From assembly GCA_029964075.1 (NCBI GenBank), contig CM057135.1:22222863-22286862 (forward strand): a DNA stretch of 64,000 bases, written 5' to 3'. Of the stretch, positions 23,586-54,432 are shown in pieces. Within the stretch, counting starts at the first letter, position 1, and each line of letters begins with the position of its first letter. A program made the translations under genes and the position numbers. A model generated the notes under the pieces. That model was not told the origin of the DNA. It searched no databases and saw only the letters and a program-made list of their open reading frames with translations. This DNA comes from Patiria pectinifera (lineage: Eukaryota; Echinodermata; Asteroidea; Valvatida; Asterinidae).

Positions 23586-23880
23586 GAACATAATGGCTTG
23601 AGCTGAGAGTAGTTTACCTTCAGTGCACACCCGTTCTTTTCTAGACACACCTGACCTTTTGGTCCTACCTCCTTTATCATGTATGGCCCGAGCCAGTCCA
23701 TCTCGAGTTTCCCTCCTTTTCGTCTAACTTTTCTCATAGTTTTCTTCAGGACTTGGTGTCCTGCCTTTAGTGTGATGCATTGGGTAGTACTCGTTCTCGT
23801 TTCAAACAGCTTTTGTTGTTTTGCCTGTGCAGATTCAATTGGCTTTCACCTCGTGGCTGGTCCCGCGAAGTGACCCTTTA
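23585..23880 (-). pseudogene. C-terminal fragment of a Gypsy-type integrase
   Basis: The frame reads RRKGGKLEMDWLGPYMIKEV and later YSQLKPL, a GPY/F module as found at the C-terminus of Gypsy-type integrases and of host genes derived from them. The stretch before it (AQAKQQKLFETRTST, LKAGHQVLKK) matches the usual linker. Only about 90 residues survive. Confidence 0.7.
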
Positions 23881-24778: not shown

Positions 24779-26179
24779 GTGCAAGCACGGACCATAGTCA
24801 TTACGGAATGCCACTTGTTGGAAGAGCAAACAACTCTTGGAATAAACATATGGCATGACTGGTACGATTTTTGTGGAACTTGTAAAAACTGCTTTCCTCA
24901 AATATTACCGTTTAATCATCTTTTATCTCAGGACTTTGATTTGGTAATTGTTGAATTTAAAACTAATACTAAAATCGATGCCGACCGACTAAAAAACCTA
25001 AAATTTAATCCATTTATTTGTAATGAGAAACTTGCTGGCAATAGTGATATCGATCCAGACATGAATTACTATGCTACAAATTATACCACATCAGAGTACC
25101 TCTTGTCGGACCAGTTTGTTGAAAAATACAAACTGACTAATTGCCAAAATACTTTTTCATGTCTTCACCAGAATGTTCGAAGCCTCGCTAAAAATTTTGA
25201 CCAAATGATTGATTTCATAAATATTCTTAACTTCCAATTCCATGTGATTGGTTTTAGCGAAACATGGTTGAATGATCAGAGTCCTGATATGCACATAAAA
25301 GATTACTCATGCGTTAAGAAAAATAGACAAAATAGGACAGGTGGCGGTGTTGCACTGTACGTGCACAATTCCCTCGACTTTTTTCTCCGTAATGACCTAA
25401 TACTGAATTGTTCAGAATGTGACTCATTATTTATTGAAATTCCTTGCACTGAGGGTAAACATATTATTGTTGGAATAGTTTACAAACCGCCTTGTTTTAA
25501 TACAAATGAATATGTTGATTTTTTTGACACTATCCTGGCAAACATAAACAAGGAAAATAAAATTTCCTTCATCATGGGCGATTTTAACATTGATTTGTTG
25601 AACTACAATAGCCATAATCCAACTCAAAATTTTGTTAATTCTCTTTTTAGCAATTCATATTTACCGCTGATAGACAGACCAACTCGCATAACGTCAACAA
25701 CTGCTACCTTAATTGATAATATTATATCAAACAGTACTGGACGTACAGAAAGCGGCATCCTGTTCAATGACGTTTCTGACCACTTACCAATTTATCAGAT
25801 ATCTTCCTTTAATATTAGAGGAATTGATAAACAAAATGCAGGTCGATTATACAGACACATTACAGCAGATAGATTGGAAAGGTTCAAAATCGATTTAAAC
25901 AACGCAAATTGGAATATCACTTGTACGGATAATCCTAATCATATTTTTGATAATTTTCATTCGGACTTTTTAAAGATATTTCAAGATAACTTTCCCCTAA
26001 AGAAAACCAAGCCCTCTAAGAAACTCAAATTATGGATGACGGATAGAATCTTGAATTCAATTAATCATAAAAATAAACTATACAAAAAATATTTAAAAAA
26101 CCCAACTAGTAACTATTTTGACAAATACAAGATACAAGTTAAATGCCATCATCAAGATTACCAAAGCAAAATTTTATAA
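24779..26179 (+). CDS. LINE ORF, endonuclease part
   Basis: A 466-residue frame. Near residues 30-60 a Cys-containing stretch precedes LPFNHLLSQDFD, as in Crack/Daphne/L2-type LINEs. The endonuclease starts with CLHQNVRSLAKNFDQM (about residue 127), then GFSETWLN with the catalytic Glu, GGGVALYV, IVGIVYKPP, FIMGDFNIDLL and SDHLPI with the catalytic Asp-His. These motifs mark the APE-like nuclease that nicks target DNA. The protein should continue into reverse transcriptase, but a one-base shift near 26175 ends the frame. Confidence 0.85.
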   Translation: MQARTIVITECHLLEEQTTLGINIWHDWYDFCGTCKNCFPQILPFNHLLSQDFDLVIVEFKTNTKIDADRLKNLKFNPFICNEKLAGNSDIDPDMNYYATNYTTSEYLLSDQFVEKYKLTNCQNTFSCLHQNVRSLAKNFDQMIDFINILNFQFHVIGFSETWLNDQSPDMHIKDYSCVKKNRQNRTGGGVALYVHNSLDFFLRNDLILNCSECDSLFIEIPCTEGKHIIVGIVYKPPCFNTNEYVDFFDTILANINKENKISFIMGDFNIDLLNYNSHNPTQNFVNSLFSNSYLPLIDRPTRITSTTATLIDNIISNSTGRTESGILFNDVSDHLPIYQISSFNIRGIDKQNAGRLYRHITADRLERFKIDLNNANWNITCTDNPNHIFDNFHSDFLKIFQDNFPLKKTKPSKKLKLWMTDRILNSINHKNKLYKKYLKNPTSNYFDKYKIQVKCHHQDYQSKIL

Positions 26180-27973
26180 AAATAAGTTTGAAAAAGTAAA
26201 AGTAATGCTAAAAAAACATGGTGTATAATTAACTCATTATTAAACAAAAATAATCATAAAAAGTACCCTTCTGAATTCAATATACGTGGAAACCATACAA
26301 ATAACACCAAAGATATTTCAAATGCTTTTAATGACTACTTTACTCAAATAGGCCCTTCTCTCAATCGAAATCTTCCTCAAGCAAATACTAGTTATGAGAA
26401 TTACTTGACTGATCCTAACGAAAATTCCATTTTCTTTAATCCAATAACAAAAACAGAAATTCATGAAATTGTTTCCAAATTTAAAAACAATAAGTCTCCT
26501 GGCTTGGCTAGTGTCAAACCAGGGTTAATCAAATCTGTCATAACCAATATAAGTGATCCCCTGTGTCACATTTTTTAAATTATCTCTATCTAAAGGGGTT
26601 TTCCCAGATAAATTGAAAATTGCCAAAGTCACTCCTATATTTAAAAAAGAAAACCCCGCTGAGCTTGGTAACTATAGACCAATTTCGGTACTATCATGTT
26701 TTTCAAGATTCTTGAAAGACTTGTGTACAATAGGACAGTAGCATTTCTAGACAAATATAACATCATTTCTGATAACCAATATGGTTTTCGATCTAATTTC
26801 TCCACTTCAATGGCACTGATTGACCTAGCAGATAAAGTAGTCCAAACGTTTGAGGAGAATGCTTTTTCAATCGGTATATTCTTAGATTTATCAAAAGCCT
26901 TTGATACTATAAACCATGATATTCTTCTTCATAAATTAAATTTCTATGGTATCCGTGGGGTTGCCCATGATTGGTTTGCGAGCTATTTGAATAATCGTAA
27001 ACAGTGTACAACTTTTAATAACTGCCTCTCTGATTTAAAAGGCATCTTATGCGGATTACCCCAGGGCTCTCTGTTGGGACCTTTGTTATTTCTACTTTAT
27101 ATTAATGACATTTCAAAGACATCTAACATATTATCCTTTATATTATATGCTGATGACACTAGTTTATTCTATTGTAACAAAGATCTTATTACCCTGTATA
27201 ATATTGTCAATAGTGAACTGGTCAGTATCTGTGATTGGTTAAAAGCTAACCGCTTAACTCTTAATTCATCTAAATGTAATTATATGATCTTCAGTAACAG
27301 GAAAAAACAGAATAACTAATCAAACTTAAATATTTTAATGGATAGCAAAACTATCAAGAAAGTAGACAAGTTTAGATTTTTAGGTGTAATCATCGATGAA
27401 AAATTGACTTGGAAATATCACATCGATGAGATTGTAAGTAAAGTTTCTAAGAGTATTGGAGTTATCAACAGACTAAAACATACTGTTCCCTCTGAGGTAT
27501 TAAATACTCTCTATAGTTCATTAATACTTCCTTATTTTTCTTACTGTAACATTGTTTGGGGGAATACATTCCGTACGAATTTGGATAAACTAATAACATT
27601 GCAGAAAAGAGTTGTTCGAAATATTACAAATTCACCATAAAGGGCCCATAGTCAACCTCTCTTGCGTGAACTAAAATATTTAAGCATAACAAACCTAAAT
27701 AAATACCAACAAGCTCTATTTATGTACAAGTTTAAAAACAATTTACTGCCCATTTCCTATTCAAACATGTTTGTACTAAACTGCAATTTGCATAACTATA
27801 ATACTCGTGTGTCTACTAACTTACATTTCCACATACCGCAACATAGAACATCTGCCTTCCAATACAACATTAAATACACCGGACCTAAAATATGGAACAA
27901 TGTACCATTGTCTCTCAGATGTTTAAGGTCTTATAATATTTTCAAACGCAAACTTAAATTGTATCTTATGTAA
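26180..27973 (+). pseudogene. LINE reverse transcriptase, several frame breaks
   Basis: Continues the LINE protein. The fingers region (KSPGLASVKP near 26495, IAKVTPIFKK, NYRPISVLSCF near 26670), palm (DLSKAFDTINHDILL near 26885; GLPQGSLLGPLLFLLYIND near 27053; YADDTSLF catalytic YADD near 27148) and thumb with KFRFLGVIID near 27370 are all present. The frame breaks near 26575, 26695, 27319 (stop) and 27640 (stop). Only the breaks argue against recent activity. Clade within the CR1 superfamily is not settled. Confidence 0.85.
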
Positions 27974-35670: not shown

Positions 35671-36444
35671 TTTGTAGCGCACTTTTATTTGATCGATGCT
35701 TATTTCACAAAAATGTCAAAACCAATTAAGAAAGTGATATGAAATCGAACAAATATTTTGTAAACGCTGCGCAAAGGCGTGCGTGCGCCATGCAAGCGCG
35801 CTACAACGCCCGCTGACAAACATTTTGACATTAACACTGGCGATTCAGCAAACAATTCAAGCAGGACAAATTTACATTACACCTCTCAATGTCGTTCTAG
35901 TAGAGTAACAGCAGGTGCAAATATCCGCTCATGCACGTTTTTTCCTTTACTTTAAATAATTAACGCAGTGTGCGCTCAAAAAAACCCTCGTAATACTACA
36001 CTATGGGCTCTGTGCGCTACCAAAAGAGGGCGCCCTTTTACCTAACAACGATGTCCCATTTCGCTGGTGGACGCGCACCGTTCCGTGTGTGTGACGCACG
36101 TACACCAGGGGATTTGTTCTATTTACCGGTGAGGGGGTGCTTGTGAACAGAGCGGATAGTTAGAGGCGTTAAAATCCGGACGCTGGCACGGTTAATTACC
36201 TACTCGCGCGTGCTTCTTTCCGTTTTGCGTTTCGTGTGACGATCAAAATTTACACATTAAACGCAAACGCACTTTAAAGCCTAGTTTCCATTTCGACGAA
36301 AGAAACGCAAGAGAGCACGGAAACGAGACCCAAACTATAACACAGATATCATGGCTGTTTCATTCCCATAGACCGTGCGTAATAAAGTTGAACAAACACA
36401 CAATCGTGAACTGTGAACTCCAGTAATGACCAGGGAAAAAAAAC

Positions 36445-36455
36445 AAGATGGCGGC
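36445..36455 (+). promoter_or_regulatory. YY1-type motif in the 5' end of the older RAG1-like element
   Basis: AAGATGGCGGC matches the YY1 consensus and lies about 95 bp inside the element and 560 bp before its first exon. The same motif occurs at 47078-47088 at the start of another transposase-like gene. Function is inferred from the motif only. Confidence 0.4.
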
Positions 36456-37008
36456 CTCCGTGAACACAAAAATTGAACACAAAACGATTGTCTTCTTTTG
36501 TAATTTTTAAAGCCCCCGTTTGAATTTTAACAGAACTTAAACATTAAATTTACTTAGTTTAAATATATTTACAAGTTTTAGTGTTCAAAACTGCTTAGAA
36601 CGAATAAAAGAAGAAAAAGTGACGCTTTTTGAGTGGACGTTTTGTGTTTTCGTCCGTTCTTTCTTTTTAATCAAACAACTCGCAAAATCTCCCAAAATAA
36701 ATTATACTTTAATAGTACATACATATTTACAGCAAATTACAATTGATTTGAAACATATTTCATTAAAAATGTACGTTATAAAGTTGGGCCAGTACAATTT
36801 CATGAGATTTTGGGCCTCGTTTTTGAGGAGTTATTTAGCTTACGTTGCACGGATGCGCGTAGCGATACGAACTTTTTGTGTGCTTTTCAATGGGATTGAC
36901 GTCATCATAAAGCGCGCGATATTTGAAAAAAATAAGTATCTGTACACAAATCAATATGCACAAAGCGCATGAGCGCTTTATGCACTGCAGTTTGCTGAAT
37001 TACTTGCT

Positions 37009-37865
37009 ATGAGTAAACCATGACTTCCACTTAACAATTCTCAATAAACTGTGTCGTTGCTGTGGAAAAAGGCTTACACACAAGAAACAAGATTCAAGAA
37101 AACTACAGGATATTTCTAACTGCAGAAAGGACATTTATTTGATCGTTGGAATAGACACTTCACAGGACAGGGTTGATCAACATCCAAGGTATATTTGTCT
37201 GAACTGTTCTAGGAAAGTTAGACACTTAAGGGCAGGGATTAGGGACTACACAACTCCAGAATCTCCTGCAGTTGATTGGACACCACATGTAAGAAACAGA
37301 CAGTGTAGTATATGTAATCTGTATCGCGAAAACTCAAAAACTGGGCCTTAACCTAAAAAACGTACTTCCATAAAACGCCCATCCGCTGTGCAGGCCGACT
37401 TGCCATTCGACATCACATCCAGGAATATCTTTGAACATCTTTCAAGAAATTCTCAAAACTCTCACACTTTAAGTTCTCCGTACCTGGAACTTTTTGGAAG
37501 GAACTCTGAGGAACATTCTATTTTAACTTGTTCAATCTGTCAGTGCATAATTTTTACCCCATCAGTGCAAACGCCCTGTGAACATTGTTTTTGTGCAGCT
37601 TGCTTGTCATCATATTTCACATTGCATCGATTAGCCCTTCTCAAATGTCCAATATGCCAGTCACAAATTCAGTTCAAAGACATTCGGGATAGTCCACGAG
37701 TTTTGAATGTCCAGCTTCAAAATTCGGATGTAGCTTGTAGTGTTTGTGGTGTCATCGGCAAATTTCAGAAATTAGCCGAACATTCCTGGGAAGCTGCATC
37801 ACAACACCCAAGTGTTCAAAAGAAACCGCAATGCACTGTTGTGGCGAGCGTTGCTTCCTCCAAGC
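37009..37865 (+). pseudogene. RAG1-like N-terminal part of the older element (exon 1, first portion)
   Basis: The start ATG AGT at 37009 matches the inner copy's MS start but is one frame off. The frame then gives LNKLCRCCGKRL, YICLNCSRKVRH and VDWTPHVRNRQCSICN, which correspond in order to the N-terminal zinc-binding region of vertebrate RAG1 (CxxC pairs and W-x-PH-x3-C-x-IC). A TAA at 37349 interrupts it. The RING finger follows: CSIC, CEHCFCAAC and CPIC at about 37528-37665, then a second zinc region with CSVC and LAEH. At 37865 the exon is cut by the inner transposon; its continuation (SSK before, PEDVLA after) is at 44558. In vertebrate RAG1 the RING acts as a ubiquitin ligase and the core cuts DNA. 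This fragment keeps only the former. Confidence 0.85.
37862..37865. repeat. left target-site duplication (AAGC)
   Basis: AAGC immediately precedes the inner element and AAGC immediately follows it at 44554-44557. RAG and Transib insertions normally make 5-bp duplications. Here the right side reads AAGCC and one C appears to be shared or lost at the left junction. Confidence 0.7.
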
Positions 37866-37883
37866 CACGGCTGTTTCACGCGC
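37866..37883 (+). repeat. left terminal inverted repeat of the inner RAG1-like element
   Basis: CACGGCTGTTTCACGCGC. The first 14 bases match the inverted right end exactly; CGC at bases 16-18 also matches. No obvious A-rich nonamer at 12- or 23-base spacing is seen. Confidence 0.85.
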
Positions 37884-38693
37884 TATGCTATACGCGCTAG
37901 CCAAGTTAAGAAATTTGTTTGTTGTGCTATTCATGTGTACTCCAATAATGTTACGCACGTACGTTCGCGGGCAGCCATTGTGCTGTAAGCTTGCGCTACT
38001 CGGCCAACAATTAGGGTGACAAAACTTGTAAATTTGACAAGTTATCATCTTTCAAATGATCCCTTAAGCCCTGCAATCCTTTGATACGAGTTTCTACCTC
38101 AGAATATATCAATAGTTACCAGTAAATATGAGGAAATTTCAATTCGGAAGATTTGTTTGTGCTTTCTTCAATCGATGTGTTGGAACACACGAGAAAAATA
38201 TGACTTTGTAAAACCCCAAAATATGAACAATTAAAGCATAGCCACGACATTTATTCATCAAAACAGTGCCACCACATAAATTTTACATAACAAAATCTTA
38301 CTCGGGACTTTGGGACTTTGATATTTTAATAGAAAACACTTACGAAAATCGTTAAATTTTCTTCATCGTCGCGACGCAGTGAGTGCCGTACTACGCGGCA
38401 GACGAAATATGGTTTCGCTGGTTCTCAATAGAAACAGCTATCTCGTTTAAAATATACACACGAAGCGCGCACCAGTAGTTATCTGTCTGCGAAGCGCGCG
38501 CTATTGAAATACACATAAAAGTCTTGTTTACGTGGGCCACTGTGTGAAGTACATGTACGTGTAGCTGGATTTGTTTCTTTTACAATGTATGTCATTGATT
38601 TTTCGGGGGCTGGGTTGACAACAGAACTGAAATTATAGCTTAAATATATCAGTTGACTTCAGTTCTTCATCGGATATTTATTCTTCTTTCAAT

Positions 38694-41600
38694 ATGAGTT
38701 TCAAGTTCCATCAGTTAGGTTTACCAAAAATATGTAGGATTGTACAAACAGAGTAAAAACATCAACGAGAAAACCAACGGTCTGCAAAGAATACAACAAC
38801 AAGGAAGTTGACACTGTTTTTGGTATTTCAATATGGGCTGACACGCCAGATCAACAACCCCATCACCTTTGTGAACTGTGTGCAAGGAAGGTTCGACATC
38901 AGAGAGCAGGTACCCGAGATTGCAGTTTTAAGCAAGCTTCCTTAACTCAGCAGATTCAGACAAACTGGCCAAAACACCAGAGGTATTGTTATGTGTGCGA
39001 TTTGCTTCAAAAACAGTCCAAGGAAGGTCCACGAGCATCATCCCTCAAGCCTAAAAGAGGGCAACTTGTGAACATCAATGCCTCACAAATAAATCTTCCA
39101 TTTGACTGTTCATCAAAAAATATATTCCGTCATCTCCGAATGCCCACGACTACCTCCCATCAGCAGGTCCCACCCAGCCTAGATGTTTTTGGGCATGTTG
39201 AACAAATTCTTTTCACTTGTGCTATTTGCCTATGTGTTTTGAGCAGACCATGTGTACAGACACCTTGCCAGCATAATTATTGCGCAGTATGTTTGTCGGC
39301 CTACTTCACACATCACAAAGTGACCGAACTGAAGTGCCCAGTCTGCCTGGAACTGGTTAACTTTGACAATGTAACTGCAAGTCCGAGGGTTCTTTGTGTT
39401 CAGCTCGATAGCTTGGATGTTGCATGCATCCACTGCAGCCGTATCGGTAACATCCACAAAATTGTGGATCACACTTGTGCAGTGACTGTTAGGGTTCAGC
39501 CAAGAGTAACCATAGTTACAAATTCCAATGTTAACGAGTCGCAGGCCAAAAGCACAGAAACTCCCAACAAGCAAGTGACTGATGCTGCAAGGTTGCTTAA
39601 ATCCCTTGCAAATGAGCACCAACAGGGTAACCCCATTCCCATTGAAGTAGAGCAAGCCACCGATAAGTGGACTTGGATCAAGTTGCAAGAACACAAAGAG
39701 CACAAGGCTTATCTTCATACCGGTGGACGAGTAAGTAGCCAATTGATATTGTCAGGAAATTACATAAATATAAAATTTAACAGATATTACAGTAATTTTA
39801 AAACAGTTAACAGTAAAAGAAAACGAGCTTCAAAAGTGTTAATAAACAAATAGATATATTCTCCAAATGTTTCTTTAAAAATCTCTATGAACCCGTAATA
39901 ATGTTATTAAAAGTAAAAAAGTTAAGCCCCTTTTATGTTAAATGAGTCATTTACAATGTACAAGCAATTGATAACGACAAAGTGTACATGTTGTTACAAG
40001 AAAAAAAACATAACAAAATTAACAAAAAAAATTACAACTTCATGTAGTTTTCAAATTCAAATTCAGCCTGCTTTAGTTCAGAAAGTGACCACAACAAGTA
40101 AGTCTGCTGACAAGCACAGAGCTTCAAATACATCTGAGACTGGCAGAGTTCAATGACTTCAAATCAAGCACTGGCTATGATGCGTGACTGCCACCACCTT
40201 GCCTGGGACCAACTTCGTAAGCTGAGAAGGTACATGGTTTTACATAAATGTTGTAGTTTACTGCTATTTTTGTTAGTTCAGAGTAGATAACATTAATTAT
40301 AAACTGCAGAGCTTTCCGTGTTTTATGTTCATTGACTCATTGAAAAGATGCACGTCATAAGGGTCGTAAAATTGTCCATGTCTCAAATATTAGTTGACTC
40401 TGTGTAAAACACTGAATAATATACAGGTTTTTTGGTGTCATTTTTGGCAGATATTTGAACGCAGGCTTCAAAATAGCATCCGACAGAAAGATGAGAAAGC
40501 AACAAGACATCTTACTCAAGGACAACCTGTGTGGGGAACTGACCAAGCTTTTGTTTCCCTCCACTAAAGCAGATGGCATCAATGGTATGGAAACAAAAGA
40601 AACCCCCTTTGTTTACATCAACCATCTGCCTTCCCTCATTTTGGACTTCCTGGACCGCCTTGACAGGTAAATATTATGAGCAAGGGGAGTAGGCAAAGCT
40701 AACTTTGAAAAGACTTTGATCCAATTGAAATGCTCTATTTTGTGTGCAAAGAAGTGACTGCAATGTTTCATGGCCTTTCTTATTACAGCACAGGACTTCT
40801 GACATGGCATGATGGTGTCATTCCCCAGGATGAAGTTTGGTTGAAAATCGGTGGGGACAAGGGCGGGACATCATTCAAGATGGACTTCCAGATAGTGAAT
40901 GTACCACATCCCAATTCACTAAGTAACACCGTGGTGTTCTGTGTTTTTGAGGGAAATGATTCCCTTGTAAATTTGCAGTGCACACTCCCCAAGCTCATGG
41001 AACAGGGTAGCAGCTCTCTCATCCACAAAGTGGAGGTGAGACATTTACTTTTTCCTAAAACATGCACATGATAGGTTAGTCTGTAAAAATAGTACATGTA
41101 CTTGAAGAAATCACTTTTTTTTGTATAAAACACTCATTATTAATTTTCTCTCTTTTTTTTGGAATACACGTTGCAGAGACAAGTCCATTCGCCTTCTCTG
41201 TTTTGGAGATTACGAGCTCTTGAACAAGATGTATGGTCTTTGTAGTTGCAATGGTAAGTATATTGGATAACAAGCAGTACATGTACATTCATACCTGGAA
41301 AGAGTATACATTGCCAATTTAATCGTACAATTTGTTATGCCTTTTTACAGCTCGTTACTGTTTGCCCTTTTCCAGCTCGTTACTGTTGCATTTATTGCAC
41401 TGCATCAAAAGAAATGATGCAACGATCCTTAGTGGAACGTGGACCCTCCCCTGCACGTTCATTACACACCATCAAGGAAAGACATCAAGACTTCCTCAGA
41501 AGCGGTGCCAAAAGAAGTCAGGCCAAGGATGTTTTTTTCAGTGTCGTCAATGAACCGCTTATGCCCATAGATATTGATCATGTAAGTCAGATGTAACTAC

Positions 41601-43134
41601 ATTACCTTCAAGTACATGTACTGTTTTTAAACTTGTACATTTGCATGTTCACATATGGATCAACATGCACATGTAGAAGATAATTAGGAAATCCTTCATT
41701 TTTTTCACAACAATAATTATCTACATTAATGTATCACCAGGTAATACTACCAAGTCTACACATCTCACTGGGAGTTTTTAAGAAGCTCTACGACCTTTTT
41801 GAGAGTGACTGCCACAAACTCGATGAGCACCTCTTCAAATTAAGAGCTGAAGCAGACGAAGGTGAAGATGAAAATGCCGGCACTAATTTTGACGAGCAAA
41901 TAACCACCTAGCGTCAAGAAAAGAAACAGCATTGCTCAGCAGCTGAGAAAGAAACAATCCCGTCTTGATGAGTTAGAGGAGGATCTCCCACTATTCGTGC
42001 TGCAGCTCACTGAGCAGCAGCATGTAGATGAGGAATTTCGTCAGCTGGCAAAGGAGACGTATCAGCTGAGGGTGGATGTACATGACCTGGTGAGTTAGTC
42101 ATGTAATTACGATAATAGCAAATGTTCCATTAACTCATTTTTTTATGGTGCACATACATGTATACATGTACAAGACCGTGATTGCACGATGATGATGCTA
42201 TTGCTCACATTTTGATTTCCACAGGAAGATGAAATGCGTCAGGCTGACCTTGCCTTTGGAACGGGTCATGTTGTCAGCTCATTGGACAAGGTATTGTCAA
42301 AATTCTATGTTCAGCGACAAGCCTACCATGGCAAAGCGTTTGTGGGCAACCACGTACATCGATGCTGCACCGTAAGTCCATGACAATTAGTAACTGCACA
42401 TTACATGAAATGTCATTTCATGTGACTTTCCAAAATTATATGCGCATACACAATGATGCTCATAATCTGCATTTTCCCCTCACAGGTTGAAGTCATTGAT
42501 GCGTTGACTGCTGCTCCAATGCAAGTCATGCTGGACCACATGACCGATGACATCACCCTTGCAGCTCAAGAACGCATAATCAGAGAATCGGCTCACATCA
42601 AAAAGAAATTTCATGACATTTTTTTGAAATTTCTGATGTTCATCATGGCATCAACCATGCAAGGGCACTCTCACCACAGGAAATCCATCGCATTGGTAGG
42701 CTAAACGTAGACTTGCATGTTCTTTGCATGTAAACAAGTTCCAACCTTGATGGTGATCACTTCTCTCTTTTTGTGTGAGAAAGTAAGTCATATTTCTTTT
42801 GTGTGTTAATGTAGATATCTGCATCAAGGATTTCTTGAAATCATTCCTCAAATCATTCCCAGGCACGAACATCTCACCGAAACTCCATCTTCTAGAAGAC
42901 CACGCAGTTGAGCAACTCCAAAGATTCCGGGTGGGATTTGGCCTTCTAAACGAACAAGGGGGTGAGCTGATTCACACGGACTTCAACAGAACTGGTAGGG
43001 TGGTGCATGGGATGAGGGATCCTCTCCAGCGACTGATGGCCATCATGAGAAGGCATCTTGTCAGCACAACGCCAGAAGTCCAGGCAAAAATTGGCATCAA
43101 CCTTCAGGAGACACGAATGTTGAGAAAAAAATGA
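38694..43134 (+). pseudogene. RAG1L: RAG1-like recombinase/transposase gene, ten exons, several frame breaks
   Basis: Predicted to bind the element ends and cut and join DNA in the nucleus. Inferred exons: 38694-39730, 40067-40229, 40451-40666, 40789-41035, 41177-41253, 41376-41581, 41741-42089, 42225-42371, 42486-42695, 42815-43134, all with GT/AG borders; about 990 residues, near vertebrate RAG1's 1,040. Exon 1: MSFKF start, N-terminal Cys pairs (HLCELC, TNWPKHQRYCYVC), RING (CAIC, CQHNYCAVC, CPVC), then CIHC-DH. Core: first catalytic Asp in IGGDKGG (exon 4), second in CFGDYELL (exon 5), zinc ligands CIYC (exon 6) and HLLEDH (exon 10), catalytic Glu in NEQGGE (exon 10), each matching the RAG1 D-D-E and C2H2 zinc layout. 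Breaks: one-base shifts near 38735 and 40152, phase mismatches at the exon 4/5 and 9/10 joins, and a shift with TAG near 41910. AATAAA lies at 43145. Confidence 0.88.
41341..41387 (+). repeat. duplicated 3' splice site before RAG1-like exon 6
   Basis: The 12-base word CTCGTTACTGTT follows TTTTTACAG and then, 25 bases later, TTTTCCAG. Two acceptor sites thus sit in tandem. Only the second gives the frame that continues to the CIYC zinc motif. Confidence 0.7.
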
Positions 43135-44535
43135 TCAGAAAAAGAATAAATGCATGTTCATGTACAGGGAACAGGACTGTTGAGGAGAAATAAAGTTTCA
43201 GAAAAAAATACAGGTTATTTAACTTGATCTGCATACAGTTTCACTTGCCTGGTGTGAATTATTTACTTCAGGTTTCCGTTTTTGTTGCATGTCAGTAGAT
43301 TTGATTTTCCCAAGACTCCCTCCCCCCAAACAGTTACATGTATGTGCACACTGAGTGCCATTGTTCACTCTTTTTTTTATCTTTGTGAATCTCGTAATGT
43401 ATGTCAAAGAAATGATGCCCTGTGTGAACATAGGATATATACGTTAAGCAATGGAGAAAAAAAACCCTCTGAACTCTGATGATTTCTATGTATATGTCTA
43501 CGACAATAGTCTACGTGGATTAACGCATGTTCAGTTTGCGTTTAACTGTATTAATGATAGGAATGGCCTACAGGCTACATCATAACATGTACATGTACAT
43601 GGGAGTTGAACATGTTGAAGCGACAGCTCATGTAAATACATCATTCAGAGTCACATAACCAATTAATCCGACCTCTGACTATGCATGCCATGCATGATAG
43701 GATTTTCATCGTGAACTACCTATTTTTAATTTTTTTTTGTAAATGTAAAATTAAGCTTCATGATTAACATGATCAACATGCTGACATGTCTAAATTTTAA
43801 ATAGGGCTAGGCCTATATTTCAAAATACGCTATAGCCTATCTGACGAACTCTTTAAAAACTGGATAATTGGAATCAAAATGTGGTCATGAACATGATTAA
43901 AAAAATCATGGGCACCAACGCTGTGACTTCACAGACGGCCACAGGTCATCAAGCACGTGTAAATGTACGCCCATGATTGTGTACGTACGTGAAAACACAT
44001 ACTGTACATACACATGGATTATGTACGCAAACGGTACACGCACCCCTCCATCATGCTCGAAAAATCACCGATTACTTTCCCAATTTACTTCAAACAACAT
44101 AATGTCCCAGACTTACCGTTTACATTACTCTGTTGAATGATGTCAAACGTGACTTAGGTTTCCTTCGTAAACTCTGGTGAATGCTCGGCTTTTTCAGAAA
44201 TGACGAATTTGTGGGCTTGTTTTTCCACGCATCCGCTGAAAACAACGCGCCGTCCGTTACAACACGAGGTGTTCAAATCGTAGTATTTCATTCAAATTGT
44301 TTACTATACGGGGTTATTTCACCGGAAAAGAGACTAGTATGACCATATAACTAGTAAGAGTCGAGAATAAATTTTCAATAATACCCAACCAGCCAAAAAA
44401 ACCTGAATTTTGGGAAGGTCATGACCTCTCGAAGGCGTCGTTTTGAGCGCCGTTCTTTTTATAAATAATGACGTCATACGTTTGTACGCTCAGAACCAAC
44501 TCTCCAAAATTCACCAAGCGAGGGCGCTCTTTTAT
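43135..44535. other. 3' non-coding part of the inner RAG1-like element
   Basis: Two AATAAA signals lie just after the stop (43145 and near 43187). I checked both strands for a RAG2-like gene and saw only frames of 64-70 codons without kelch or PHD patterns. Confidence 0.6.
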
Positions 44536-44553
44536 GCGTGTGAAACAGCCGTG
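44536..44553 (-). repeat. right terminal inverted repeat of the inner RAG1-like element
   Basis: GCGTGTGAAACAGCCGTG, the inverse of the left end, followed directly by AAGC. Confidence 0.85.
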
Positions 44554-44557
44554 AAGC

Positions 44558-45828
44558 CTGAGGATGTACTTGCTTAAGCTGCAAACGTTCTTCGCAAGAG
44601 TGCCCTGCAGCAAGGCAGCGGACCGCTGGACCTGGATTAAATTAAATCAGAGTGGAAAGGCCACCACATTAGAAACAGGAGGCAGGGTAGGTTATCTAAT
44701 TCACACAATACATATACTAAACATAAACAATTATTAGTCCAAGTGAGGGGGGGCGGTATTTATCTTACATTTTGGAGTAATTACAAAGTCTACTAAGATT
44801 TTGTTTTCTTGATTATTACTTTTTGTAAGATTTCTTTCCAGAATTCATCATGAATTAAACATAATAATACAATATATATTTTGTTAAATGCTTTAAAAAT
44901 ACTTCACAAACACTGGATCCACTGAACACTTGTAATTGAAACACTGAGAATACCACAATGCTGTAGATTGCACATTGGAATCTTTAGTACATGCACATGT
45001 ATCTGTTTCTTAATTTAGCCTGCTCATATCCGCTAAGTGTCATGTAAGAGCCAACAAAGTGTGTCAAGTCCATGCATAAAGGAAAGTTGACCCATGCCAC
45101 CCAACAAAGCACTTGCCATGATGAGGGATTGTCATCCGGCCTGGGACCAGATGCGAAAAATAAGACGGTAAGTAAAGTATATTTTTGCATCATCCTTATT
45201 AATTTAAGTTTTGCACACAAAATTTCATACATGTATCAGAATGCTATTTGTTCATCACATGTATTGTGTTGTTGAACATTTCAGTATGTGCCAACTTCTG
45301 CCATTTCGTCCGAGCGAGCCATGAGACGTAGCCAGAAAGAACTTCTGAAGAACTACATTGGGGTGAAATGGTCCCCCTTCACTTCCCCAGCTCGAAAGCT
45401 GATGCTGTTGATGGCTACATAAGACGAGATGTGCCCTTCGTCAGAGTGAATGACCTTTGTGCTATGATGGCATGATATTTGACTACCTTGACCGACTCGA
45501 TCGAGTCTAAATTGGAGACACATATTTTTTCCCAGAATTTTAAGGGCAATGTCTTGATTCAGTGTCGTAGCTCCACCTAAACTGAAATTAGTTTTCCCCA
45601 CAACAGGACCAACTCCCTCACATGGCACAATGGTGTAATACCGGACGACGAGATATGGATAAAGTTGGGGGGGGGGGGGACAAAGGAGGATCCACGTTCA
45701 ATATGGCATTCCAGATTGTTAATGTTCCTCATCCTAACAGCCTAAAAAAAAGCAAAGTTGTGTGTGCATGTTTCCATGGTGATGACAGCTACTACAACCT
45801 CCAGAAAACCCTTCCTAAGGTGGTCGAC
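44558..45828 (+). pseudogene. RAG1-like central part of the older element (end of exon 1 to exon 4)
   Basis: Continues the gene broken at 37865. The rest of exon 1 gives FFARVPCSKAADRWTWIKL and ends TGGR at a GTAGGT donor (44686); the inner copy has DKWTWIKL and TGGR at its own donor. Exon 2 (45019-45167) gives NKALAMMRDCHPAWDQMRK. Exon 3 (45285 to about 45508) is scrambled by indels but keeps SERAMRRSQKELLKNYIG. Exon 4 (45607-45828) keeps the first catalytic Asp in GGDKGG beside a run of 13 G, then FQIVNVPHPNSL. Exons 5-10, with the other catalytic residues, are missing. It is non-functional. Confidence 0.85.
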
Positions 45829-45963
45829 CAAGTATTTCGCTCGTACCCCCGTCCTGCAAACAGGACGCTGGGATACTCTGATGAATTCGCGCTCTGATTG
45901 GTTGGATTTGTATGACCTGTGACCTGGAGGTCATGAATCCGGATATCGCCGACATGCTCAATC
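45829..45963. other. junction between RAG1-like remnant and helicase remnant
   Basis: Unrelated sequence begins here. A small palindrome GTCCTGCAAACAGGAC lies at 45852-45867 and a GCTCTGATTGG CCAAT-type box near 45890. Confidence 0.4.
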
Positions 45964-46745
45964 ATGGCGGCTCAGCTGAAGTTGGAATGTGTTTTGCGTT
46001 TTAAGCTTTCCTTGTGTCGCCTGAATCGAGATTTTGGTAGGTGCATATCTTATCTGAAACCAAATCAATAAAGAAAGTGATGTTTTAGCAGTGCTACCAA
46101 GTGGATACGGTAAAACCTTAATTTTCGATCTGATTCCGTACATGTGTCACGTGAACGCTAACGTCTCATCCTTACCAGCACCGCCTGCAACACCACCTGC
46201 CCCCATACCATTGGACGTGTCAGAGACTGGCGATCATCATGATCATGGTGGCCTTGGCATGCTTGGCGATGTTTCAAGGGGGGGGGGATCCCTTGTGTTA
46301 GTGATATCTCCCCTTGATGTCATTACAAATAAAAAAAACTGTCTCTTTGGGGACAAAAGGCGTGTTGTGTCAGTGACCTGGTAAGTCAAAGACCATGGAG
46401 ACTGCATCCGGAGTAGACACAATTATGTACAAAATAGGACAACCAGAGAATTTCTTGTCTTGCGATTCTTGAAAGTCCTCATGAGAGAGTAGTTTCAGAC
46501 ACGGCAAGTCTTCATCGTAGTAGATGAATCCCACTGCATTGCCACATGGGGACCATTCTTCCGTCCAGCTTACAGTGAAATAAACAAACTACGTGCCATA
46601 TTTCCAGCTGCCCGTGTCCTTGCAAGGACGGCTTCAGCATCCACAAGGATGCAATCCACAATCACATCGGCACTGAGTATGAGAAACCTGGTCTTAATAT
46701 CATCTTCGATGGACTAGACCAAGATGCATGGCCGATTATCTTGCA
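45964..46745 (+). pseudogene. RecQ-like DEAH helicase remnant
   Basis: DNA helicase of the RecQ type, which unwinds DNA using ATP. The ATG at 45964 opens MAAQLKLECVLRF. After a stop, VLPSGYGKTLIF at about 46087-46125 is the Walker A motif, and SLVLVISPLDVI near 46290 is motif Ia. A GTAAGT donor at 46381 suggests an intron. Then VVDESHCIATWGPFFRPAYS near 46520 is the DEAH box with RecQ-type context, followed by ARTASAS (motif III) near 46620. The C-terminal half and zinc region are absent. Stops and frame changes are present. Similar helicases are often associated with transposons, and this one precedes another transposase-like gene in the same orientation, but a link is not shown. Confidence 0.75.
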
Positions 46746-47045
46746 GGTTCGTGACGCTTATCACAGATCTAAATAAATTGTACTTTAAACTACTCAGGAA
46801 GCTGTTAGGATGCTCACATATAAAATCCACCGTTGATCCGTGACCAAAAAAACGGTACCAAAATCGCGATTTAAAGTTCAAATCTCCTCCGTTTCGGCGC
46901 AAAAAAAATGCCGAGTGAAGAATTACGTCATTAAGCGCAAAAATGCCGATTGAAGAATTACGTCATTATTTTCCAATGACCAATCAGCGAGGCCCTTCTG
47001 TCGTGGTGCGGTGAATGGACCAATAGCGGGCGCTGTAAGTAAGAG

Positions 47046-47088
47046 CATGCGCATGCGCGTAAGCACTACTAGACAGCAAGATGGCGGC
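47046..47088 (+). promoter_or_regulatory. NRF1- and YY1-type promoter motifs
   Basis: GCGCATGCGC at 47049-47058 is a perfect NRF1 consensus. AAGATGGCGGC at 47078-47088 is a YY1 consensus that overlaps the start codon of the next gene, as is common in housekeeping-type animal promoters. Confidence 0.6.
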
Positions 47089-50000
47089 CGCCATGAGCTC
47101 CTCGGACGAAACGAAGTGCATTATGCATGTTTCGAATGCCGAATCGAGCGTTTCATCGTTCTTCGAGACAAGCTGGATAAAATTACTTGCTTGTGCTGGT
47201 AGTCAGAAGAATGTGGGGTGATCAACACACGCAGAAATCGTGGAAAAAGCGGAGAAGTTCATCGGCATGCACGTGCACTGCACTGATGCAGCACTCTCGT
47301 GGAAGGAGAGAATTTCGGAAGGAGATACCGGAATCTTCGGCCTACGTTAGTTCGTATTATTATTCTTGCCTTGAACTTAATTATAAGAAGCTGTTGGATT
47401 CGGAATATTTCAGAATATTTTTGTCTACAACCTAGATTGCTATGATGTATTATTTGTTTTGTAAAACATGTTTCTAGTAATATTTAGTAGACCACCTGAC
47501 CGTCCATTGTTGACAGCATGATCTGATGATCATGGTTGGCAAGGTTAGGAAAAGCCACAGATCAAAGAATGTTTTCCCCTTACTCAGTTAAAGGATTTTA
47601 AGACTAGGAAGAGACTCTTATATTACACTACAGAACATTTTATATTTAGTAGGCCTATGCTCCCTGAACTTGGCGACTGTGTATAGAACTACGGGTTCCC
47701 TTGATTTAAAAAATAACGAGAACAAAATCCACTTTGACTTAATACTTGGCATCATTGGGGATTTGATTGTGTAGTATGTTGTGGGTCTACCATTCAATTT
47801 AAGCCACAATTTGCTCGGTAATAATTAATAATTATCTAAGTACGAAGTCGTTAAAACCAACATTTTTGTATTTTTTTAAGCTGGCAGCTCATATCATCCT
47901 CATTTTAACTGTACTTTTATTTCTTGCTATTCTTTTTCTAGAAAGAATAATATAATATAAAAATAATGAGAACCTGCCAAATTCTCTAAATGTCAAGCCC
48001 TCACTGTCAATATATTAAGATTTTAGATTTTCACTTTTTTTTCCCCATTTTTAATTTTTCCCCCCTGATCACTACATGTGAAGAAAAGTATACGGATAAT
48101 AAATGTTTGTACCTGAAGGTGTCATGGTGTAAATATTTTCCTAAGTTGGATGATAGAATGTTCCATTCTACGAGGTGAAACTTAGTTGAATGGAACATTT
48201 CTCTTTGCCCCATAATTCTCCAATCAACTGACAAAGATTTACTTTGTGAAAAAAATTGAAATGAGAGTAATGAGTGGTATTTTAAAAACATTTTTTCAAT
48301 TACAAGCATTTGGATACCATCAACACATTCAGCAGTGCTACAAACGTATCTGTGATGTTTCCAGGATAGACCGTGCCGAAAGACTTGCAAAGAAACTGCA
48401 ACATGAAAGTCAAGGTTTTTTTGTCTTTTTTTTCTGTGGAGTCACATGGGCACATTCACTTGAGAAATATTACATGCCTAAAGCAGGGGCTGGTTGGAGA
48501 TAGAGCCTTCCTCTACACAACTTTAGTTTGAGTCAAGTTTTCATAATTTTGTAGCTAAATCAAATTGGAAAATGAGAAAAACACTTAAAATCATCAATTT
48601 CTAACTTTTACCCTTGACTACACCCAGATGCCTCCATATGATTGTACACCAAAAAAAATTGGAAAAATAAAAAAAAATTCCCTCACAACCCCTATTTTTG
48701 TAAAGCCATGAAATCGGAAACAGAACTATTTGGGGGGGGGGGGGCCTAAAGTAACTGCTGCCTTTACATATGTAATGTATTTTGCTGATAATTTTGTTGT
48801 AAGCAACATTGAATCATTTTATTTTGTACTCTATGGCGGTTTTTGCCAAACAATCAATAATAGTTAATTGAAAATGATGCATGCATTGTAGTGATTTTTT
48901 TTTAATACGGAACCATGTTAAAAAAAGCCCTTATCACCAAACAAATACTCCCCTTATAGTAGGATAGTTAGACATATCATTTTTTGTTTAATCATGTCTC
49001 CTTCAGGTTGCTGGAAAAGGAATTTTGTCCTCAACATATCCTTGCTCTGGGAAAACTCACAGCGAAGATGTTGTCAACCAAGTGAAAGGTTTTTATGACA
49101 GTGATGAGATCAGCAGAGCGATGCCAGGTAAGAAGGACTGTGTGGCCATCCGAGTCAACGGATTATCTGCCAGAAGCGTCTCTGCTAGAAGCGTCTACTT
49201 TTGTGCATACAGGGCATTTAAGGACAAGTATCCAGAACTAAAGGTGGGTTTTCAAAATTTGCCGAATTAAGGCACAAGTATCGCGTTGTAGCTGGAAGTA
49301 CTGGTACACATTCCGTATGTGTCTGTACCAATCATCAAAATGTAAAGCTGATGATCCATACCGTTGACATTCCTCGTTTTCGTGGATCCTACAAAAACAT
49401 GCTTGCTGAAATCACCTGTAATCCTGGCACAACGGACTGTATTCTGGGAAATTGTTCTATGTGTCCCAAGGTTGCTGACCTGAAGCAGCATATCATGGAG
49501 GAGATAGAAGATGAGGCTATCGATGGAATATGTTACAAGCAGTGGGTATCAACAGACAGAGCAATATTAGAAACCATGACAGCAGAAGTTACTGATGGTT
49601 CATTCTGTGATCGGTTTTCTGAAAAGTTTCATCAGCTGAAACGGCATGAATTCATTGCCGACCAGCAGGCAAAGTATCTAATTCACCTTAGGTCAGAGTT
49701 GCAGCGTGGTGAAATAATTGTTCTTGGGGATTTATCAGAAAATTACGCATTTGTTGTTCAAGATTCATCACAGGGGTTTCACTGGACGAATGACCAAGGA
49801 ACACTGCATCCGTTTGTGATCTACTTCAAAAAAGACAACCAGCTTCCCCATTTCAACTTTGTTGTAATCTCTAACAGCCTCACCAATGACACCATCGCAG
49901 TTTACTGTTTCCAACGAAGGCTACACAACTACCTTGTGCAGACAATGCATGTGCGCAAAGTATTCTACTTCACAGTTGTATCTTCTGCACAATACAAAAA

Positions 50001-50429
50001 CAGGAAGAACTTTGCAACCTTGACTGTCACAAGGTTGACTTTTCATCGGATGCTGTGTGACATTTCTTTGCCACATCACGTGGGAAAGGACCGTGTGATG
50101 AATTGGATGGAACTGTAAAGCGTTTGGCCGCAAAAGCCAGTCTTCAGAGACCGTATGAAGACCAAATCTTTAATGCTCAGCAGCTGTATTCGTGGGCCAA
50201 GGTGAATATTCCAGGAAAACAGTTTGATTTTGTGGACAAGAGTGAAGTGCAACAGTGCGGAGAATGTTTTGAGAGTCGATTCTCATCAACAGTGACTGTT
50301 CAGGGTACAAAACAGCTCCATGCTTTTTACCCACACCCAGTACAGCCGACTCACGTCCAGGTAAAATTCATTTTGAAGGAACAAGATGCCAAGTCTGTGA
50401 AAGTCATTAAAGTTCAAGAAGCACAGTGA
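47081..50429 (+). pseudogene. multi-exon transposase-like protein (unclassified RNase H-fold type)
   Basis: Start ATG at 47081 (MAAAMSSSDE). Inferred exons: 47081 to about 47344, about 48304-48411 (FGYHQHIQQCYKRI), and 49007-50429. The last contains VKGFYDSDEISRAMPGKKDC, AFKDKYPELKVGF, AGSTGTHSVCVCTNHQNVKL, CSMCPKV, LGDLSENYAFVVQD, LHPFVIYF, AQYKNRKNF and GTVKRLAAKASLQRP. This order matches a large family of uncharacterised invertebrate proteins that I take to be transposases or their derivatives. The acidic residues in GDLSENY and the CDELDG segment could be catalytic. In the usual FTDG-x2-QYKN motif this copy has FTVVSSAQYKN, losing the Asp. Stops or shifts lie near 47213, 49268 and 50080, so it is probably dead. 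Family name uncertain. Confidence 0.65.
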
Positions 50430-50726
50430 TAAATGAGTAAGGTAACTTTGATTGTGATATTCAGTATTATCTTCAAGCAAACTTGAATCCTAGACTGTGA
50501 TAAGCGTATCTACAGCAACAACTGTGTGATTTTATATAATATTGCACAGCTATATTGCAACCCAGGAATCGAATGTACATGTACATATGTTGTGTTCTTT
50601 TTATTCCCTGGTGAACGGGGCCAATACACTATGCACGTACATCCTAACCGCGTGTACGCGTTCGATATCAAGTTTGCTTGAAGTTAAATTGGTTATCCCA
50701 CTTGCGCTCGTGGAACACGAAAAAAT

Positions 50727-50815
50727 GTAGTTAGTGCATTTGGGGGGGGGGGCATATGGGTCACAGCAGCATTGTAGTTAGTGCATTGGGGGCATATGGG
50801 TCACAGCAGCATTGC
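50727..50815. repeat. two-copy tandem repeat with variable G run
   Basis: GTAGTTAGTGCATT, a G run, then CATATGGGTCACAGCAGCATT occur twice; the G run is 11 in the first and 5 in the second. Confidence 0.8.
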
Positions 50816-53057
50816 ATTTTTTCATATTCCAAGCACCTCGTAGGATAACTAATTAACAGTGGCACCCAGGAAGGGGGGGGGGGCTTGAGGGGTTGAACCC
50901 ACCACCAACATTGTCAATTTGTTTGTTCGATTTGCGGTTAATTTTTGTTGGTCCAATCTTGTACAGAAATTTGGGAAAAAAATATGAGCCCCCCGCCAAA
51001 AGCCAAATCCTGAGTGCGCCACTGCTGATAATTTACACTATGAGTCTGGTTAGACCTCATCAGCCCTCAGCATGAGAAATTCCCAAACCAAGATATATTT
51101 TAGTAACTTTAGACACAGAATAGTAAGTTGTGTTGGTGGATTCCTAATGTAAAGTCTATAAATTGACTTATTTGTAACGTACCAACTGTAAAAAAAAATA
51201 GTGATAAAGTTGTACATTTTGATTATTGGTTAATAGACTGTAATTGTAATGGTTGGTCTTCGGCCTATCATTTATATATAACTTACCTCTTTCACCGGCA
51301 GGCCAACTCTGACGAAGTGGGGAAGAGTGTTGCGAGATTAGATGACCTGTGCTGTTTATCATTAATTAGTTAACAATTATAGATTATCTCTAGTATTACC
51401 TGATGGCGCGTACTGCGATGGTCATTGCGTTCACGCTGTGCTTTCACCACCGAAAACCAGTCAGTTGCCGTGTCACGCGTAGCTCCTCTATTTTGTCGTC
51501 AACACAACTTACAGCAACGCAAGGCCAGCGAACGATGGCCGTAAAAAGGGCTTCGGAAATTTCGCAATTTTCATGGCAAACCATTACACCATTACCGATC
51601 CAAACAAACAAACTTGTTACAGGTAGTTGAAGACCTACTTCTTACATCTATCAATGTACTTTTTTCCTAAAAAGGATTTCGATGCATGTTAACGATATTA
51701 TTTAACGGACAAATCGACTTCAAATTAGGTCATGAAATTTCCTTTTTCTTCGAGAACGATGAAAGTCTCCCAAATGTTGAGGTAATCAAACGAATTACGA
51801 AAGAGTGAACGTTTATCTACAAAAAAAATCTCGTGAACGAGATGTCGATAATATTTTTAAAATGTGCACCTAATGTTTCCAACAACTCCCACTTTTCATA
51901 ACGCAAAAAGATCGTCGCCATTGTAAAGCTTCAATCAATGAACCCAATTACGGTGTGACCTTGTGACCCATACGCCTACTGATTGGTCGAGCTTGAGTGT
52001 GAGCCTGCGTAGTATTCATAAGTCATTCATCGCGCGTTCGAACGTGCTATTCACAATGTTTTAAGGCCAACGCACATGTTATACGTTGGCGTACTTACAT
52101 TCGTTCATACGCGTAAATGTGATTGCAAATCATGAAATCTCGCAAAAGTCTTCATTTTTCAACCGGCAATTCGAAGCAAACATTGGAAGTCTCCTGCACT
52201 TGTTCACATGAAAATGAAGCGTATACTTTCTTCTTTGTACTAAGCCTTGCCATTTGTTTCGGCCTATTTTAAGAATCGAATGTACACCTAAAAACTATCG
52301 GCCCTCGATTTTGTTAATAAAAAATATGATTTTGTTTGACATGGCATAACAACACTTTACATTTTTCAAAAGCAGTTATTCTTTTGTTATCAAAATAAAG
52401 CACACGATTTCAACTTTTCACCTAAGCCATCTTGGCCAAACAGTGCACCGATGCACTTTTATTGTTTTTCTGTATTCTCGAATACACCTCATAAAACCTG
52501 GCGTACGCTTTTGGGCCATGTGTGCTTGTCCTCGGGACGAGAAACTGAGGTCAAACAGGGCTGTGTGCGTGCAGCGTCGACTCCATGGGCGTTTGCGCGC
52601 TCCTTCACTAACCCCTGGCCGTGATGATGACGTAAACGATGATGACCGGCTATTCAGAGCGTACTGCGCGGGCATTTTGAAGATTGCACGCCGGCCGGCG
52701 CGCCCATAATTGCGCTCGCGCGTGCTTTGCACGTCACGTCACGTGCGAATATTCAAAACTGCGCAATGCCTGTAGGATATGGATTATGGCAGCCTCGTTT
52801 TTCGCTGAAAAAAAACCCTGTATCTGCGGTTGCAAAGGGACGACAGGCATCAAAGGGGCACGTACCTTTGATACAAATCTTTGCTAAATAACGCAACGTC
52901 CAAACCTTATGTTTGAAAGCATTGATTCTTCAAAAAAACAACTTTCAACATTCTAAAGATTGCGTTGGTGCGTAAAACGGATAAACTGCAGCCTAATTAT
53001 ATTGCCATATTTTGACACATTTGAATAACACAATTCCAGGGGCTACAGTCGCGCAAG
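50816..53057. other. non-coding; CpG-rich block at 52500-52780
   Basis: No gene supported up to 52.4 kb. Between 52500 and 52780 CG dinucleotides and CGCG words are dense (CGGCCGGCGCGCCC near 52690; CACGTCACGTCACGTG near 52727), which looks like a CpG island or promoter without a recognised exon. Confidence 0.45.
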
Positions 53058-53074
53058 GCATGATGGGAAACAAC
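53058..53074 (+). promoter_or_regulatory. shared promoter-like motif GCATGATGGGAAACAAC
   Basis: Identical to 10397-10413, and the eight bases before it also match except for two. The inverse, TTTCCCATCATGC, resembles the CCCA-x2-ATGC part of ZNF143/Staf-type sites. Here it lies 350 bp before the Myb/SANT-like exon. Confidence 0.45.
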
Positions 53075-53410
53075 ATGGCGCAGCAAGATCGTACCCCGGG
53101 GCACGAGGTTGGTGTGCGTGGCACGGCTTCTGACTGGAACTACTGGCCGGCTTAACCAGACCGATTATAGTCGGCTATCGATGTCAGACGGTCTTGGATA
53201 AGACGCTAAATTTTGCCCTTGCAATAAGCCGGTCTGTACTAAGCCTGCTTGGAGTAATGATGTAACGAACAAACGATCCATGGTTACCGCGATGGGTGGC
53301 GCGCTTTCCAATAATCTCATGTTGTAGGATGGAGCTACGCATACGGCAGTCCATATATGCGTTCATACAGTCATACTGCATCAGCGCATGTACACCTCGT
53401 ATTCATATAA

Positions 53411-53677
53411 ATGGCAAATGCAAATAAAAGCAACAACCCTCGCCGTCCAGCGTTTGCAGAGGCAGAACAATTAGCTTTGATTGATGGCTTTTCACAACAC
53501 GGCGCCATTCTGCAATCACAGCTCACCAATGCTGTAACACTACAGTCAAAACGTGCGGCATGGGACGAAATCACTGTTGCCGTCAATGCTGTAAATCCAG
53601 CCATTGTCCGGACCAGGGATGAGGTCAAGAAAAAATGGAAAAATCTGGTAGCAGAAACGAAGAAGGACGTCAGTAAG
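53411..53677 (+). CDS. Myb/SANT-like DNA-binding protein, first exon
   Basis: The ATG at 53411 opens an 89-residue exon ending in VSK before a GTACGC donor at 53678. Residues 12-85 form a Myb/SANT-like trihelix: PAFAEAEQLALIDGFSQHG, then KRAAWDEITVAVNAV, then TRDEVKKKWKNLVAETKKD. The tryptophans in AAWDEI and KKWKNL and the spacing fit the domain found in MSANTD proteins and in the accessory protein of PIF/Harbinger transposons, which binds DNA and carries the transposase to the nucleus. No Harbinger nuclease was found nearby, so a stand-alone host or orphan element gene are both possible. Later exons are not identified. Confidence 0.7.
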
Positions 53678-53852
53678 GTACGCATTTAAGGCTTCGATCC
53701 TGATTCCCGACTACCACCAATTCACGATAGTTGGGCCAGTGCTGGACTTGCTGATCCGATGATTAGGAAGAAACAAGTCAGTTTACAGACCGGTCACCAC
53801 TCAGGCATATAATCGAGATTGTGCTCAATACAATTCACATAGGCTTGCATAT

Positions 53853-54300
53853 CGTCGGCGTTTTCACGAAGTGGCGAATCTGTCCACGCAGCACGCACAC
53901 TGGGTTTTGAGAAAAACGACTTTGAAGTTGGTCACTTTTTGAAATTGTCATTTCGCCCCACTTTTAATACAAATTTCAAAATATTTTCCATTGATACGAT
54001 AGCTCATTAGTTAAATAACATGACTATATACACATTTCTACCCTTGGATGTGTAATTAAAGAGCTGTTCATTAAGAAAAGGATTCGCCACTTCGTGAAAA
54101 CGCAAAATTCAGACCTCATCGGATTCGCCACACACAGCGCGCGATTCGCCACTTCGTGAAAACGCAAAACGAAGAGGTCAATGATTCGCCACACACAACG
54201 CGCGGATTCGCCACTTCGTGAAAACGCAAAATGCAGACCTGAACACATTCGCCACACACAGCGCGTTGATTCGCCACTTCGTGAAAACGCAAAACGCCGA
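53853..54300. mobile_element. MITE-like element with CACTTCGTGAAAACGC repeats
   Basis: The left edge reads GGCGTTTTCACGAAGTGGCG at about 53857, and four inverse copies (GATTCGCCACTTCGTGAAAA) start at 54081, 54143, 54205 and 54269, about 62 bp apart, each followed by CGCAAAA. Between them lie ATTCGCCACACACA half-units. The structure is an inverted-ended element whose right end has been tandemly amplified. Confidence 0.75.
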
Positions 54301-54372
54301 GGTCAATAGATTCGCCAAAATTATCAGCCTAATAACGTGCGAGGCACTGATTTCATTGACTCTTTTTTTTTT

Positions 54373-54432
54373 GGGGGGGGGGAGGAGAGGGGGAGGAGAG
54401 GGGGAGGAGGAGGGGAGGAGGGGGGGGGGAGG
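54373..54432 (+). repeat. polypurine G-rich tract
   Basis: Sixty bases of only G and A, mostly GGAGGAGAGGGG-type. It could form G-quadruplex or triplex structures. Confidence 0.9.

Follow-up and report, generated by a model that had tools for sequence, protein, structure and literature searches.

The closest described relatives of the locus reported here are the Chapaev transposons. The DUF1280 domain (PF06918) represents Chapaev transposases, which fall into one clade with RAG1 among the RNase-H-like enzymes (PMC3985635), and in two Chapaev subgroups a RING finger comes after a Chapa domain, an order also found in RAG1 (PMC4411706). As hallmarks, Chapaev elements make duplications of 3 to 4 base pairs (bp), have ends that are always CAC/GTG, and carry the C(2)C, LH, and H(4)H motifs (PMC4079192). 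The wider CMCT group, to which RAG1 belongs, is described as sharing the motifs C(2)C and H(3-4)H, ends that are mostly CA..TG, and 2- to 5-bp duplications (PMC12730594). RAG1-like (RAGL) transposons, in turn, are marked by a RAG1L and a RAG2L gene in convergent orientation, by ends similar to the heptamer of the recombination signal sequence (RSS), and by 5-bp duplications (PMC7204232). We analyzed a 64,000-bp stretch of the genome of the sea star Patiria pectinifera (GCA_029964075.1, contig CM057135.1, positions 22,222,863 to 22,286,862; referred to here as the window), in which one transposon lies inside another. With a probability of roughly 0.93, a cut-and-paste DNA transposon of one Chapaev (CMC/CMCT) family inserted into exon 1 of an element from another Chapaev family, duplicating AAGC. 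Chapaev elements are distantly related to the transposon from which RAG1, an enzyme needed for making antibodies, arose. Nesting of this sort is unremarkable, and both elements are of a known kind. The reading draws directly on the termini and the duplication, on the break in homology, on the assignment to families, and on the fold predicted for a closely related intact protein. The locus is undescribed in the titles and abstract openings among the matches listed in our literature searches, and neither family is named in the literature passages or listings examined.

Borders of the inner element and the empty site

The features that define the nesting are given below, with P0002 standing for the best intact relative, a protein of 989 amino acids from Asterias amurensis.

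36350 to 36363, plus strand: probable left end of the outer element, CATGGCTGTTTCAT, 12/14 identical to the inner ends (pattern scan)
37025 to 37865, plus strand: part of the outer element left of the insertion, with a Chapa domain, a RING finger, and an in-frame stop (37349-37351) (Pfam PF12560 RAG1_imp_bd, E 1.2e-5; tblastn with P0002, 40% over 282 columns)
37862 to 37865, no strand: left target-site duplication, AAGC (sequence)
37866 to 37879, plus strand: left terminal inverted repeat of the inner element, CACGGCTGTTTCAC (identical to the reverse complement of the right end over 14 ungapped bp)
44540 to 44553, minus strand: right terminal inverted repeat of the inner element, GTGAAACAGCCGTG (sequence and inverted-repeat scan)
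44554 to 44557, no strand: right target-site duplication, AAGC (sequence)
44558 to 45831, plus strand: resumption of the outer element, running from the remainder of exon 1 through the exons that follow into the catalytic one (PF06918), interrupted by a stop and frame changes (Pfam E 2.3e-11; tblastn with P0002 and P0005)

The inner element spans 6,688 bp (37866-44553) between perfect 14-bp inverted ends, the right end being the exact reverse complement of the left one. Its borders read CACGGCTG...CAGCCGTG, with CAC...GTG at the termini. The duplication is perfect over 4 bp, and base five is mismatched (CAAGC versus AAGCC). In the whole window, the inner element is the sole pair that combines a perfect 14-bp inverted repeat, a spacing of 1 to 20 kilobases (kb), and a perfect 4-bp direct repeat immediately outside.

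For an empty-site test, the flanks were joined without 37866-44553 and aligned to P0002 by tblastn. The alignment to the older copy stops at residue 276, 22 bp before the junction, and restarts at residue 322, 54 bp past it, in the same order and orientation. Because 45 residues of P0002 face 76 unaligned bp at the joined site, the insertion site lies in an exon 1 linker of low conservation. Across the junction the frame runs SSK-PEDVLA, followed by a stop. Since similarity between P0002 and the outer copy resumes past the junction, collinear on both sides, the nested insertion is real unless the assembly is wrong. An assembly error joining two unlinked Chapaev loci is exceedingly improbable, given that the joint sits on perfect inverted ends and a perfect 4-bp duplication, that the outer halves are collinear with one protein, and that the window contains 0 N. 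The position of the element, i.e., the homology break at the junction, is a stronger argument than the end-pattern scan. The original prediction, made from the sequence alone, was accurate for the borders, the inverted ends, the AAGC flanks, and the exon reading from SSK to PEDVLA; its natural empty site with an inner element younger than the outer one is likewise borne out, by the nesting and by the joined-flank alignment.

Assignment of both copies to Chapaev

The catalytic part of both copies belongs to PF06918 (Pfam, E 1.3e-14 for the inner and 2.3e-11 for the outer copy), and both match RING families. In the outer copy, the frame at 37013-37351 has a match to PF12560 (RAG1 importin binding) with an E value of 1.2e-5; the inner N-terminal frame, which is cut at its start, gives no PF12560 match at E 1, and its Chapa part aligns to that of the outer copy with 37% identity over 79 columns. 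Every Chapaev hallmark is present in the inner copy, where CCIYC, PSLHISLG, and HLLEDH correspond to C(2)C, LH, and H(4)H, and GGDKGG, FGDYEL, and NEQGGE to the proposed DDE residues. The elements thus agree with the Chapa and RING subgroups of Chapaev (CMC/CMCT), as described in PMC4411706 and PMC4079192, in PF06918, CAC...GTG ends, a 4-bp duplication, the C(2)C/LH/H(4)H motifs, and a Chapa domain and RING finger in front, but differ from described Chapaev in that both copies are broken.

A search for relatives with the spliced catalytic half of the inner copy as query (E 0.01, 7996 candidates scored) found 25 proteins, of which the top six come from sea stars (Asterias amurensis, A. rubens, Patiria, and Acanthaster) and lower-ranked ones from a brittle star, a sponge, a sea cucumber, a crinoid, and sea urchins. 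P0002 is the best of these, with 76% identity over 97% of the query, and its cluster comprises 20 sequences. The protein search with the inner N-terminal frame yielded one protein, P0001. All 18 of the 25 relatives that make up our alignment (A1) match PF06918; in A1, neither of the D columns varies, and conservation is at least 90% in the two C columns and the two H columns. Neither viral contigs (31 pattern matches) nor prokaryote genome contigs (593 pattern matches) contained a confirmed relative.

Two families instead of one lineage

The original prediction saw two copies of a single RAG1-like (RAGL) lineage and hence a self-insertion, which we consider highly unlikely. A tree was calculated from the 121 columns covered by the outer copy, with 22 rows remaining after P0010 was dropped from 23 for having too few aligned letters (P0001, P0006, P0009, P0025, and P0026 were left out). 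Over these columns, the inner copy is 85% identical to P0002 (100/117) and 56% to the outer copy (65/116), while the outer copy is 72% identical to P0005 from A. rubens (61/85). The tree joins the outer copy and P0005 with an ultrafast bootstrap of 99 and sets the inner copy and P0002 off from the rest by a branch with a support of 95. The N termini of the two copies share 39% identity over 250 columns, and at the DNA level there is a single 65-bp match between them. Judged by these comparisons, the copies belong to two Chapaev families, each nearer to a different Asterias protein; the tree and the identities led us to reject self-insertion. Because one Chapaev family landed in another, the nesting shows no self-insertion, and the part of the original prediction that stands is a nested insertion with its empty site, without the RAG/RAGL label.

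Several observations weigh against a nested insertion between two Chapaev families. The inner ends share just 14 bp, after which their ungapped inverted match ends, and the inner borders are read from one genomic copy. The same end pattern arose in 1/200 shuffles of a rough control (first-order Markov, modelled on a 10-kb stretch). The tree covers 121 columns only. The probable left end of the outer copy starts with CAT instead of the invariable CAC, and the scan of the window found no right end for it.

Likeness to RAG1 and differences from RAGL and Transib

The likeness to RAG1 that underlies the original prediction is real at two levels, the Chapa/RING N terminus and the fold of the core. 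The profile of the relatives has RAG1 RING and zinc-finger stretches as its top PDB matches (E 1.1e-12), and the core of P0002, in its predicted fold, superposes on solved RAG1 and Transib structures, matching RAG1 at least as well as Transib. Together with PF12560 in the outer copy, these results are what favors a RAGL identity. At the sequence level, the core gave no match to RAG1 above the threshold; a match that falls far short of that threshold pairs the FGDYELL column with GYDEK of RAG1. A phmmer search of the PDB with the outer Chapa frame returned 3 matches, all chance-like.

What argues against RAGL, and against the self-insertion built on it, is PF06918 as the catalytic part of both copies, the duplication, the lack of a detectable RAG2-like frame, and the low identities given above. 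The RAG1-core family PF12940 was found in none of eight window frames at E 1, and it is absent among the matches listed for the 18 aligned relatives (25 of 30 families). The longest stop-to-stop frames lying wholly in 43135-44553 and 37866-38693 have 79 and 62 amino acids, respectively, and a Pfam search at E 10 with 12 further frames from the inner element detected neither Kelch nor PHD nor RAG2, although a badly decayed remnant could escape such a search. The RSS heptamer is CACAGTG; the inner end, CACGGCT, agrees with it by eye at 4/7 positions, with CAC in common. The elements therefore differ from RAGL, ProtoRAG, TransibSU, and vertebrate RAG1 in having no detected RAG2-like gene, a duplication of 4 bp (versus 5 bp in RAGL; PMC7204232), ends unlike the heptamer beyond CAC, and no core sequence match above the threshold. 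Membership in RAGL was rejected on the basis of PF06918, the duplication, the undetected RAG2-like gene, and the ends.

The canonical Transib transposase, as described in PMC4411706, is without the Chapa/RING part that the elements have, and Transibs are reported with 5-bp duplications (PMC8355894) compared with 4 bp here. N-RAG-TP of Aplysia, compared by its description only, is likewise an invertebrate transposon with a protein resembling the RAG1 N terminus; N-RAG-TP is described as entirely N-terminal-like sequence (PMC8355894), whereas a full transposase follows here.

A RING/Chapa N terminus is insufficient to label a transposon RAG-like, and the nested pair provides a clean empty-site measurement (4 bp, CAC...GTG) for Chapaev with Chapa and RING. 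The comparison of the predicted fold lends structural support to the proposal of PMC4411706 that the Chapaev transposases and those of Transib/RAG1 branched within a single group. Only tentatively do we suggest that the elements represent a living transposon line built on the full plan of the RAG1 protein (zinc fingers, RING, and RAG1-fold core) but lacking RAG2 and Transib-type ends. If this plan was inherited and not assembled twice, the N terminus and the core of RAG1 would have come together from a common Chapaev-Transib ancestor, before RAG2.

If intact, the transposase would be a DDE enzyme shaped like RAG1: its RAG1-fold core would be preceded by a Chapa zinc finger and then a RING finger, and it would act on CAC...GTG ends. 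By analogy with what is generally known of the DDE transposases of the group, it would cut at the CAC ends and join to the target with a 4-bp stagger, whose gap repair would produce the AAGC duplication. The inner copy, now broken, may have been moved by an intact transposase of its own or of a sister copy. Its insertion presumably came second, as the nesting suggests, and both copies probably decayed largely in place.

The inner transposase gene

The inner gene was divided into ten exons, all on the plus strand, whose edges were read by eye from splice sites.

38694 to 39730, plus strand: exon 1, Chapa-like zinc finger and RING finger, frame change at ~38740, ending at a GT donor (tblastn with P0002, 74% over 346 columns; Pfam RING families)
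40069 to 40228, plus strand: exon 2, frame change at ~40147 (P0002 residues 347-401 in two frames)
40453 to 40669, plus strand: exon 3 (81% to P0002 over 72 residues)
40787 to 41035, plus strand: exon 4, PF06918 and GGDKGG with the proposed first catalytic aspartate (Pfam E 1.3e-14; 86% to P0002 residues 471-543; in-frame similarity ends at 41005)
41175 to 41253, plus strand: exon 5, FGDYELL with the proposed second catalytic aspartate (83% to P0002)
41376 to 41583, plus strand: exon 6, C(2)C motif CCIYC (tblastn with P0002)
41741 to 42089, plus strand: exon 7, LH motif, stop and frame change at ~41905 (tblastn with P0002)
42225 to 42372, plus strand: exon 8, QRQAYHGKAFVGNHVH (tblastn with P0002)
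42489 to 42695, plus strand: exon 9, frame change at ~42660 (tblastn with P0002)
42811 to 43134, plus strand: exon 10, H(4)H motif HLLEDH and the NEQGGE region of the putative catalytic glutamate, then a stop (86% to P0002 residues 887-980)

The original prediction called the inner element complete, which fits its ends but not its gene: relative to P0002, the frame changes at ~38740, 40147, 41905 (with a stop), and 42660, and a probable fifth change at ~41005 is our reading of where the similarity stops. From its sequence, the inner copy looks dead as a source of transposase, with intact ends; because the gene is broken and the ends are intact, it could be moved at most by a transposase from elsewhere.

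Decay of the outer copy

A scan of the window for the end motif with up to 3 mismatches gave six matches, namely, the two exact inner ends, the one at 36350 with 2 mismatches, and three with 3 mismatches, a number that we estimate to be at chance level. Since no right end was found, the identity of the outer copy as a once-complete transposon rests on its coding part and the 12/14 left end. Coding similarity ends at ~45831, within the catalytic exon, and no convincing inverted ends or duplication were found for whatever interrupted the copy there. When seven inner exon pieces were compared with 45832-64000 by tblastn for the missing 3' half, one match had an E value under 0.1 and was not accepted; against 1-36000, nothing fell under E 0.9. 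The outer copy might instead be a domesticated host gene of Chapaev ancestry, a reading in keeping with a probable left end and an undetected right one, but its stops, its frame changes, and the 3' half undetected downstream make this extremely unlikely. For the same reasons the outer copy is not a working gene now and, as a transposon of the second Chapaev family, looks dead from its sequence.

Past the break lies a helicase-like fragment at 46058-46384 (DEAD-box, E 0.0044, below the family cut-off) that may be akin to RecQ, and the interval 45832-50440 also holds a frame of 298 amino acids (49222-50118) with no Pfam match at E 0.01. The one match under E 0.1 in the search for the 3' half lies on the minus strand at 62657-62725, where 25 amino acids resemble the exon 8 piece (E 0.002); the surrounding sequence is rich in repeats and stops, and the similarity may be due to chance.

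Other features of the window

A 979-amino-acid open frame on the minus strand (57353-60292) contains an internal tandem repeat of ~297 bp (59123-59604 versus 59420-59895, 96% identical) and has a weak match to DUF7869 below the cut-off; of 7990 candidates scored against it, none reached E 1e-20. A retrotransposon-type integrase frame lies at 5049-5918 (PF17921, E 4.8e-14; rve below the cut-off), and a LINE-type element at 24779-27319 consists of an endonuclease frame (PF03372) followed by a reverse transcriptase (PF00078). Comparison of the window with itself also revealed diverged direct repeats, ~80 to 91% identical, at 61958-63045, 17302-18117, and 23191-23588.

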